Shown here: positions 40,623-43,924 of the stretch, piece by piece
Numbering within the stretch: position 1 is the first letter of the stretch
Layout: every line of letters starts with the position of its first letter
Origin: Fodinibius saliphilus
Lineage (GTDB): Bacteria; Bacteroidota; Rhodothermia; Balneolales; Balneolaceae
Length of the DNA stretch: 64,000 nucleotides
Assembly: GCF_005869845.1 (NCBI RefSeq)
Contig: NZ_VAWF01000001.1
Span: 1,116,001-1,180,000 of the forward strand
Direction of reading: 5' to 3'
Notes under the pieces: model-generated
Seen by the model: the letters and a program-made list of their open reading frames with translations, nothing else
The model's database searches: none
What the model was told of the DNA's origin: nothing
Made by a program: the position numbers and the translations under genes

Positions 40623-42128
40623 TTATGATGAGCGTCGATCCCACCACGGCGAAACAGCTCCACTGGCAAAATATTGATTGTTTTTTTGTGTCTTCTTCTC
40701 TCCTTTACCTTCCTTCTTAAGCAGTGCTGCGGCTAAAGCTTTTACCTTATCGTCATCAGTAATAGTACCGTCTAACTTCTCTTCGCTGAAGTGATCAGGT
40801 ACAAAATGTGTGTCGTACTCACCTGAAGTAAAAGATTCGTGATTCAATACGAATTTACAGAATGGAATGGTCGTACGGCAACCCGCAATTTCATACTCAT
40901 CCAATGCTCGCAGCATTCTCTTAATAGCGTGCTCACGATCGTTTCCATAAGTACAAAGTTTAGAGATCATCGGATCATAATTGATGGTCACCGCCTGCCC
41001 TTCTTCAACTCCGGAATCAACACGTACTCCATTCCCCGAGGGAATGCGGTGTTTTTTCAAGGTACCAGTACTGGGTAAAAAGTTATCCCGCGGATCTTCG
41101 GCATAAATACGGCATTCTAAAGCATGTCCGTCCATGGTAATTTCGTCTTGCGTCATTGGCAACTTTTTGCCTTCCGCTACAATGATTTGCAAGGCAACCA
41201 GATCCAAGCCTGTAATCAGTTCGGTAACAGGATGTTCTACCTGCAGACGGGTATTCATCTCCAGGAAATAAAAATTACGATCGGCATCAACCAGGAACTC
41301 AATCGTTCCTGCTCCTACATAATCCACTGCTTCTGCTGCAGCTATCGCCGCATCGGCCATTTCGGAACGCAGTTCCTCCGTTAAAATTGAACAAGGGGCT
41401 TCTTCGATTACTTTCTGGTGGCGCCGCTGGATGGAACATTCCCGGTCAAAGACATGCAGTACATTACCATGCTCATCAGCAATAATTTGAAACTCAACGT
41501 GACGTGGCTCTACTAAATATTTTTCGATATAAACGCGATCATCCCCAAAAGCATTACGAGCTTCCGACTTAGCCGCTTTAATGCCCGATTTAAATTCGTC
41601 CGGAGAATCAACAATGCGCATCCCTTTACCACCACCGCCGGCTGCAGCTTTCACAAGCACCGGGTAACCGATATCATTGGCAATGTTCTCAGCCTCTTCA
41701 ATATCTTCGAGCTCTTTTTTGGTCCCCGGTGGAAAGGGCACATTCGCCTTACTCATAATTTCACGGGCAGCCGTTTTATCTCCCATCGATTTAATGGCGT
41801 AAGCATCGGGACCGATAAAGATAATCCCCTCCTTTTTACACCGCTCCGAAAACTCCGCGTTCTCACTCAAAAAACCGTAACCCGGGTGGATAGCATCAGC
41901 CCCTGTATCTTTGGCTGCCTGTATAATTTTGTCGATCACCAGATAACTTTCAGAAGAAGCGGCCGGACCAATATGTACCGATTCATCGGCCTGTAACACG
42001 TGCGGAGCCTCAGCATCGGGCGTAGAATAAACCGCAACGGTCTCTTTACCAAGTTCCTTACAACTACGGATAACACGTAACGCAATTTCGCCTCTGTTGG
42101 CGACTAAAATTTTTGAAATATTGGGCAT
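40623..42128 (-). CDS. accC: Biotin carboxylase
   Basis: Carboxylates biotin on a carrier protein with ATP and bicarbonate, for acetyl- or another acyl-CoA carboxylase. From the chosen ATG (MPNISKILVANRGEIALRVI) it has 501 residues; the longer frame up to 42179 would overlap the end of the upstream gene. It shows the ATP-grasp Gly loop KAAAGGGGKGMRIV, HVFDRECSIQRRHQKVIEEA, FLEMNTRLQVEHPVTE and the C-terminal biotin carboxylase domain. The final 50 residues (rich in Lys, ending AVSPWWDRRSS) extend past the usual AccC end. No biotin carrier gene is adjacent. Confidence 0.94.
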   Translation of the reverse strand: MPNISKILVANRGEIALRVIRSCKELGKETVAVYSTPDAEAPHVLQADESVHIGPAASSESYLVIDKIIQAAKDTGADAIHPGYGFLSENAEFSERCKKEGIIFIGPDAYAIKSMGDKTAAREIMSKANVPFPPGTKKELEDIEEAENIANDIGYPVLVKAAAGGGGKGMRIVDSPDEFKSGIKAAKSEARNAFGDDRVYIEKYLVEPRHVEFQIIADEHGNVLHVFDRECSIQRRHQKVIEEAPCSILTEELRSEMADAAIAAAEAVDYVGAGTIEFLVDADRNFYFLEMNTRLQVEHPVTELITGLDLVALQIIVAEGKKLPMTQDEITMDGHALECRIYAEDPRDNFLPSTGTLKKHRIPSGNGVRVDSGVEEGQAVTINYDPMISKLCTYGNDREHAIKRMLRALDEYEIAGCRTTIPFCKFVLNHESFTSGEYDTHFVPDHFSEEKLDGTITDDDKVKALAAALLKKEGKGEKKTQKNNQYFASGAVSPWWDRRSS

Positions 42129-42136
42129 AATAGTTC

Positions 42137-42847
42137 TTAAATAACGTGAGTTTTTAACATTTGTGGCCACAGTTCCCATTCGTCACCAGTCTCACCCCAG
42201 ATATCGAGATCATGTTCTATAAATTTCATACGCATCACATTACTCATGCGCAGCGTGTCTTCTTTACGCTCATCAGCCTCATAACTAACAAGTCGGAAAT
42301 CAATATCCCGAACACGCTCAAGAAGCGACTGCTTGTTCATATTAGGCACAAAATCCATTGGGTTATTGTAGTACACATCATCATCATAAAAACCGTCCAT
42401 AAATGGTTTTATATCGTAGATACCACTCATGCCAATAGCTTTGCCAAATGCCTGGGGATGTTTAAGAGCAGTGGTAAGTGCATGGCAGCCTCCCAGATCA
42501 ATACCTGCAATAATAATAAAATCGATATTATTTTCTTCCAGGATATAGGGCACAACTTCTTCGACGATATACGCCTCATATTGCTGCTGACGAATGATAC
42601 GTTGCGAGGGCATTGCATCGTCATTCAAAAACCCTTCTTTATCGATTGATGAAAGGCAAAAAAGCTGATTAAACTCATTATCAAGCTGATAAGAGATGGC
42701 ATCAACCATCCCAAATTCTTCCCACTGATGGCAGGAAGCCCCTCTTGTCGGAAGCCCGATAATTGGAGTTCCTGACTTGCCATACACTGTCAGCTCCATA
42801 TCTTTTCCAAGACTTGGGCTCCTCCAGTTTTCCGTTTTCTTCTCCAT
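42137..42847 (-). CDS. Esterase-family protein lacking catalytic residues
   Basis: A 236-residue alpha/beta-hydrolase-fold protein of the putative esterase (esterase D-like) group. The whole fold is recognisable: start WRSPSLGKDMELTVYGKSGT, QQYEAYIVEEVVPYILEENN, KHPQAFGKAIGMSGIYDIKP and FMDGFYDDDVYYNNPMDF. At the nucleophile elbow, where relatives have GCSFGGYHA, it has GIDLGGCHA, with Asp in place of Ser; where relatives have the catalytic His (GHDWPWW) it has GDEWELWP. It is therefore probably a pseudoenzyme rather than a broken gene, as the frame is intact. It ends 8 bases before accC. Confidence 0.85.
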   Translation of the reverse strand: MEKKTENWRSPSLGKDMELTVYGKSGTPIIGLPTRGASCHQWEEFGMVDAISYQLDNEFNQLFCLSSIDKEGFLNDDAMPSQRIIRQQQYEAYIVEEVVPYILEENNIDFIIIAGIDLGGCHALTTALKHPQAFGKAIGMSGIYDIKPFMDGFYDDDVYYNNPMDFVPNMNKQSLLERVRDIDFRLVSYEADERKEDTLRMSNVMRMKFIEHDLDIWGETGDEWELWPQMLKTHVI

Positions 42848-42943
42848 TCTGCACCTGTTATTGGATTGATACTGTCAATAAATTTGAATGGAATATAACA
42901 GTTCAGAACGTATTGTGTAAACGGGGAATTGGATACTGTAATC

Positions 42944-43924
42944 TCAGGATTTTCCAACCTTCATTTGGTAGTACGCCCGAGGTAAAATGGACAGTTTTTC
43001 GGTTGTATTTAGATAGGCGCGAGTATCAAAAACGTTATAATCGTTTTTTTCTATCTTATTAAGGATACGACTATAATTTTGCCGTGCCAGATATACCGGC
43101 AATTGGCTGTCGCTAGAGAGCAGGGCTATTCCCTTATCTGATCGATTATAGTATCTTCGGGTACGTTCAATTTGAAACTGAAGCAGATTTTTAACATGCT
43201 CATTTAACCTATGGCAAAACAGATCGTCTTCGGTGACGCCAAAGTGCTGCAGATCTTCTTGAGGCAGGTAAATACGATTACGCTCAAGATCTTCTCCCAC
43301 ATCCCGTAAAATATTGGTAAGCTGCATTGCAATACCCAGATCTATGGCATAACTACGTGCTTCTTCATTTTCATATCCAAAAACCTGACTTGTCATCAAA
43401 CCAACAATAGAAGCTACTTTGAAGGAGTAATTGTAAAGCTCATTGAATGTTTCGTAGCGATTTTTAAAAAGATCCATACACACCCCTTCCATCAGCTCAA
43501 AAGGCATTTCTATAGGGATATGATGGCGTTTTAAAACATCCGAAAAGGCAATTAAAATGGCGTTATCTTGCGTGCGTCCTTCATACGTATCTTCAAGCTT
43601 CTGTTTCCACCTATTTAGCCTTCCGCGGATATCTTCTTTCGTCAACTTCTTCTGTTCCAACAAATCTTCAGCTTCATCAACCAAATCGTCGATGTACCTA
43701 CACAAACTATAGATAGCAAAAATACCCCGTTGCTTGTGGTTTGGAAGAAAACGGGTAGCCATATAAAAGGTTTTAGCATGATGCCGAGTAATAGCCCTGC
43801 ACTCCGAATAAGCATTTTTCAATCGCTCATCATCGATCTCTTCTATTACCGAACGGTGAAAAGAAGTCCGCTGATAAAGGGGCTTGATGAGTACATATGG
43901 AATACGGAATAGATCAGTCATCAA
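42944..43924 (-). CDS. crtB: Phytoene/squalene synthase family protein
   Basis: Head-to-head prenyl condensing enzyme of 326 residues. Both Asp-rich motifs are present: DDLVDEAED (near residue 79) and DVGEDLERNRIYLPQEDL (near 212), together with RHHAKTFYMATRFLPNHKQR and YDREEA-like SYAIDLGIAMQLTNILRD. Length fits bacterial phytoene synthase. Squalene synthase is a possible alternative, since the family cannot be split by these motifs alone and no crtI or hpn gene is adjacent. It is divergent from purC, with 186 bases between them. Confidence 0.85.
   Translation of the reverse strand: MMTDLFRIPYVLIKPLYQRTSFHRSVIEEIDDERLKNAYSECRAITRHHAKTFYMATRFLPNHKQRGIFAIYSLCRYIDDLVDEAEDLLEQKKLTKEDIRGRLNRWKQKLEDTYEGRTQDNAILIAFSDVLKRHHIPIEMPFELMEGVCMDLFKNRYETFNELYNYSFKVASIVGLMTSQVFGYENEEARSYAIDLGIAMQLTNILRDVGEDLERNRIYLPQEDLQHFGVTEDDLFCHRLNEHVKNLLQFQIERTRRYYNRSDKGIALLSSDSQLPVYLARQNYSRILNKIEKNDYNVFDTRAYLNTTEKLSILPRAYYQMKVGKS

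Follow-up and report, generated by a model that had tools for sequence, protein, structure and literature searches.

CE1 esterases and S-formylglutathione hydrolases are Ser hydrolases, and ferulic acid/CE1 esterases and S-formylglutathione hydrolases (5vol, 7xrt, 4rgy, and 6vh9) are the nearest solved folds to the predicted protein described here, which lacks their Ser; some structure titles in this group mention serine mutants or probes. A second point of comparison is MPT51 (FbpC1/FbpD), the secreted mycobacterial paralogue of antigen 85. The Mycobacterium tuberculosis structure of MPT51 (PDB 1r88) has the same fold as our protein, here called X (Z score, 21.8; rmsd, 2.8; 216 aligned residues), at 16% identity, and X is found in a different operon and phylum. 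Judged from the alignment and a predicted model, X would resemble MPT51 in kind: the same fold, lost catalytic residues, and a frame kept by selection. A literature search of titles and abstracts, with limited coverage of subscription journals, returned no paper on the X family or its locus.

X is encoded in a 64,000-nucleotide stretch of Fodinibius saliphilus DNA (contig NZ_VAWF01000001.1), the whole of which is called the window below. Its gene lies between those of a biotin carboxylase (BC) and a squalene/phytoene synthase (PSY):

42137..42847, minus strand: X, esterase homologue lacking Ser and His, 236 amino acids, alpha/beta-hydrolase fold by Pfam match and predicted structure
40623..42128, minus strand: BC, second biotin carboxylase, 501 amino acids, ATP-grasp, 8 bases downstream of X, not the accB-linked AccC
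42944..43924, minus strand: PSY, squalene/phytoene synthase, upstream of X on the same strand

The X protein matched the Pfam Esterase family PF00756 with an E value of 1.8e-9 and 38.2 bits, above the curated cutoff of 22; the intact relative at locus L065 scored 48.5 bits. Its AF2 model was confident (pLDDT, 96.3; pTM, 0.93), and the closest solved folds, again CE1/ferulic acid esterases and S-formylglutathione hydrolases, reached Z scores of up to 24.0, so that both the model and the structure matches give X the alpha/beta-hydrolase fold of its family. An earlier, sequence-only reading had claimed an open frame with a complete fold at this position, and the ORF, the Pfam match, and the model agree with it. 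The nearest named relative of X is from Fodinibius halophilus (91%). No signal peptide was evident by eye in X. Between PSY and X, positions 42892-42921 (minus strand) hold a promoter-like match (10/12); such matches were about equally frequent in the region (18) and in shuffled sequence (mean, 14.2).

The residues on which the comparison with intact esterases turns are as follows, the three codons having been located by alignment and read from the window sequence:

42497..42499, minus strand: codon of Asp117, at the nucleophile position (Ser in intact relatives)
42272..42274, minus strand: codon of Asp192, the retained third position of the triad
42182..42184, minus strand: codon of Asp222, at the catalytic His position
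42293..42301, minus strand: D183-F-R185, the start of a core strand (D in 63/64 and R in 64/64 X rows)

The nucleophile elbow of X, G115-I-D117-L-G119-G, aligned to G-A-S-F-G-A of the intact relatives, which bears out the earlier claim that the nucleophile Ser has become Asp in the window (GIDLGG). Because GD222-E223-W224 aligned with HDW, Asp222 occupies the catalytic His position. X thus has neither the nucleophile Ser nor the catalytic His of an active Ser esterase, while Asp192 is kept (D in 62/64 X rows). Ser was absent from the nucleophile column in all 74 distinct X-type proteins, where position 117 was G in 27, D in 19, A in 12, H in 7, N in 3, E in 2, F in 2, R in 1, and Q in 1. The sequence-only reading had asked whether both changes are conserved in this lineage. 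Loss of Ser is (74/74); Asp117 is conserved in the closest clade (window plus 14; 15/15 rows), the only one in which Asp is fixed; and loss of His is less strict than loss of Ser, with His at column 222 in 5 of 64 X rows (L008, L021, L024, L072, and L073), none of which has Ser. The conservation of Asp117 in that clade and the absence of Ser throughout the set show that the change goes beyond chance. As for an alternative Ser or Cys in X, only S10, S12, and S202 exceeded 85%, and none of these lies at the old active site.

In haloalkane dehalogenases and epoxide hydrolases, the nucleophile is an Asp. By analogy, Asp117 could be a new nucleophile in the Fodinibius clade, all 15 rows of which carry G-x-D-x-G-G. 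This is very unlikely, however: the general base His is missing from 14 of those 15 rows (L008 is the sole exception), and at this locus the remaining X clades carry other residues at position 117, among them G, A, H, and N. Beyond the window's clade, the Asp itself is not conserved as a functional residue in the alignment. One report (PMC9909488) describes Balneolaceae as lacking bioH and possibly holding another hydrolase. X was considered as the missing pimeloyl-ACP methyl esterase and rejected for its lack of Ser.

Matches were surveyed in 58 relatives (43 with matches) and in 244 genomes of the class (111 with matches). The matches of both surveys minus weak rows, together with 80 added loci, gave 142 distinct proteins, and a gene was counted as a neighbor when at most 800 bases separated it from PSY, BC, or murQ. 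The labels purC, murQ, and DnaK were assigned from the sequences rather than by a family search and are putative. The proteins fell into two sets. Set A, with 68 of the 142, keeps Ser and HDW in every member, unlike X, and has no member adjoining PSY, BC, or murQ (0/68); these intact PF00756 relatives (GASFGAYHA ... HDWPWW) resemble X in length and fold at 35 to 49% identity. The Ser-less set X comprises the other 74, and 73 of these adjoin one of the three genes: PSY and BC in 58 cases, BC only in 9, PSY and murQ in 5, murQ only in 1, and none in 1 (L045), though short contigs or the ends of the stretch examined may explain some of the BC-only loci. Relatives at this locus with Ser and His had been named earlier as the evidence that would speak against a noncatalytic X; none of the 73 proteins beside PSY, BC, or murQ keeps Ser. 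The Ser-less proteins of the genome survey all belong to three families (f1, f3, and f4) of the window's order, and intact proteins were found in Balneolota, Rhodothermota, Acidobacteriota, Chloroflexota, and Planctomycetota. A few Ser-less proteins (L068 and L080) come from records titled Bacteroidetes or Chitinophagaceae, and the tree placed them among Balneolaceae. Ten genomes (G037, G040, G042, G043, G045, G048, G051, G053, G055, and G115) hold both kinds.

For a tree of 111 rows, columns 117 and 222-224 were left out. In it, the Ser-less set formed one side of a branch with an SH-aLRT value of 100, and the same split kept a value of 98 after the removal of nine long rows and of a large part of the catalytic rim. 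Since one branch separates the Ser-less set, Ser appears to have been lost only once, long ago and early in the history of one salt-loving bacterial group. D183 and R185 were each present in 16/16 of the intact relatives from Balneolota but in only 19/47 and 16/47, respectively, of all intact rows, a pattern that favors an origin of X from the Balneolota branch. These sequences are best explained by a duplication that took place within Balneolota or before it and by one subsequent loss. When the presence of X was mapped on a PSY tree, it required five changes, two of them forced by starred branches, although that tree has long branches and can indicate losses of X only roughly.

Next to its neighbors, X evolves fast: median identity over 14 loci was 0.64 for X, 0.81 for BC, and 0.74 for PSY. 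This rate and the several absences on the PSY tree are what a decaying remnant or a neutral operon passenger might show. However, dN/dS was 0.044 between the window's X and its nearest relative and 0.025 to 0.042 in three further X pairs (four unsaturated pairs in all, 0.025 to 0.044). The corresponding values were 0.022 to 0.037 for BC, 0.034 for PSY, and 0.031 to 0.049 for intact esterases; dS was saturated, and no ratio was obtained, in three X, three intact, one BC, and two PSY pairs. No match row in the survey of 58 relatives had an internal stop, and X has been retained in several families. Because of the low dN/dS in particular, we regard decay or neutral passage as the least probable of the explanations considered. 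The proposal that an intact frame is under selection without its catalytic residues is thereby upheld, by dN/dS together with the confident fold.

The distribution of conservation over the fold differed between X and intact proteins. In the loops of the catalytic face, column entropy was 1.91 bits for X, as against 1.08 for all intact rows and 0.71 for near intact relatives, while on the opposite face, at the N-terminal ends of the strands, it was 1.40, 1.73, and 1.16, respectively, the faces having been assigned from the order of strands and loops and not from coordinates. The contrast between faces was reached in 0 of 20,000 shuffles, a result that is only indicative because columns are not independent. 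Set against all intact relatives, these values suggested a newly gained conserved surface in X. That idea was discarded: D183, R185, N60, and K136 are also 16/16 in the Balneolota intact relatives and were therefore kept in X, not gained. The opposite face is slightly less conserved in X than in near relatives (1.40 versus 1.16). Conservation of this face may reflect the fold core alone.

The old substrate pocket could also have been put to a new use. Plant GID1-type receptors are small-molecule receptors with an old substrate pocket, and X might be a receptor of that type. Its intact fold, the pocket acid Asp192 in 62/64 rows, and the fixation of both Asp117 and Glu223 (each 15/15) in the window's clade are compatible with this. 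The pocket-side loops are nevertheless the most variable part of X, and nine different residues occur at position 117, unlike what one shared ligand would lead us to expect; by analogy with GID1, then, a receptor is conceivable but doubtful.

By all the sequence evidence, X is a conserved noncatalytic paralogue. Our preferred reading, to which we give a probability of roughly one-half, is that X is a pseudoesterase, a noncatalytic paralogue of the intact esterases that acts by binding a partner protein; the binding role is a best guess, and X would be comparable to MPT51. X appears to have arisen once; the nucleophile is lost in all 74 distinct members and the His in nearly all, and purifying selection keeps the protein, whose predicted fold is complete. 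Its catalytic face has been freed from constraint, while the opposite N-terminal strand ends have stayed conserved. X would have no hydrolase activity and would bind a partner protein through the conserved face as a scaffold, adaptor, or allosteric subunit. Its place between PSY and BC would have been taken early, with dependence on neither. X offers a clear case of an enzyme turned nonenzyme, with one loss, a mostly fixed genomic place, and selection on part of the fold. Intact paralogues in some of the same genomes serve as a built-in control, and X would permit a direct test of what a bacterial pseudoesterase does. To call these proteins "esterase" on the strength of a Pfam match would misname an entire clade within Balneolota.

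The neighboring BC was the partner suggested by the sequence-only reading, which called it accC. It is a biotin carboxylase, and its ATG at 42128 does lie 8 bases past the X stop, as claimed, but the genome has two such enzymes, and this is the second. The canonical AccC was excluded as the neighbor of X, since the genome's accB-accC lies at C1:833-835 kb. In NCBIfam searches, the second BC passed the accC model TIGR00514 (639.9 versus 626.5 bits) and scored best with PRK08654, yet below the cutoff of that model. The window BC (40623-42128) has a C-terminal extension; the genes for BCCP and for carboxyltransferases are at other places in the genome. Because that BCCP is free and the carboxyltransferases are mmdA-like, we infer that the second BC may be part of an acyl-CoA/propionyl-CoA carboxylase.

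As a regulatory or assembly subunit of this BC, X would account for the 8-base spacing in the window and for the presence of BC within 800 bases of 67/74 distinct X genes, often overlapping or within about 15 bases. Furthermore, set A has a RimK-like ATP-grasp neighbor in 28/40 loci, and BC is likewise an ATP-grasp enzyme. X and BC do not, however, occur together obligatorily, as would be expected of a carboxylase subunit. In four genomes of a sister family (G036, G039, G047, and G054; loci L038, L023, L027, and L037), X adjoins murQ and there is no window-type BC, the sole BC being AccC-like, at 53 to 55% identity. In G055 (L045:1495-2208), X sits beside a DnaK-like ORF, away from PSY and BC. 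A close PSY is missing from G036 (best match, 31%) and G011 (32%), and X in G011 still precedes BC. Conversely, 32 Balneolaceae genomes were chosen in which X had no match at all, apart from G026, where no match was full length, and G059, where a single weak one occurred. Among their 30 PSY loci, 28 had BC directly behind PSY without X, L158 had a diverged X, and L166 had no BC there; G038, G041, and G046 also have BC behind PSY and lack X. X is absent from many Balneolaceae and so is dispensable. The proposed role with biotin carboxylase is therefore not supported, and a dedicated BC subunit is unlikely; the link is weak, with BC a possible but not a required partner. What stands of the earlier interpretation is the selected frame without catalytic residues.

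A broader version holds that the esterase family docks on ATP-grasp enzymes, set A on the RimK-like ligase of the adjacent gene and X on BC. X would have turned into a subunit of a Balneolota acyl-CoA carboxylase with a purely regulatory or assembly function and, once that carboxylase was lost, would have moved to another ATP-grasp partner. We consider this more improbable still than the BC subunit itself. The RimK-like gene in those 28 of 40 set A loci lies within 5 kb and mostly directly downstream; in other loci, the esterase is followed by genes for a circularly permuted ATP-grasp protein, for a glutamine amidotransferase, or for both GCS2 and an M29 peptidase. The operons at L065:10001-13875 and L115:10001-15108 combine an intact esterase either with a RimK-like ATP-grasp gene, a circularly permuted ATP-grasp gene, and a GATase gene or with genes for GCS2 and an M29 peptidase plus one that has no Pfam hit. 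Pfam and NCBIfam hits at L065 and L115 did not name the pathway of the set A operons, and the ATP-grasp, GATase, and GCS2/M29 neighbors suggest one that forms amides or peptides.
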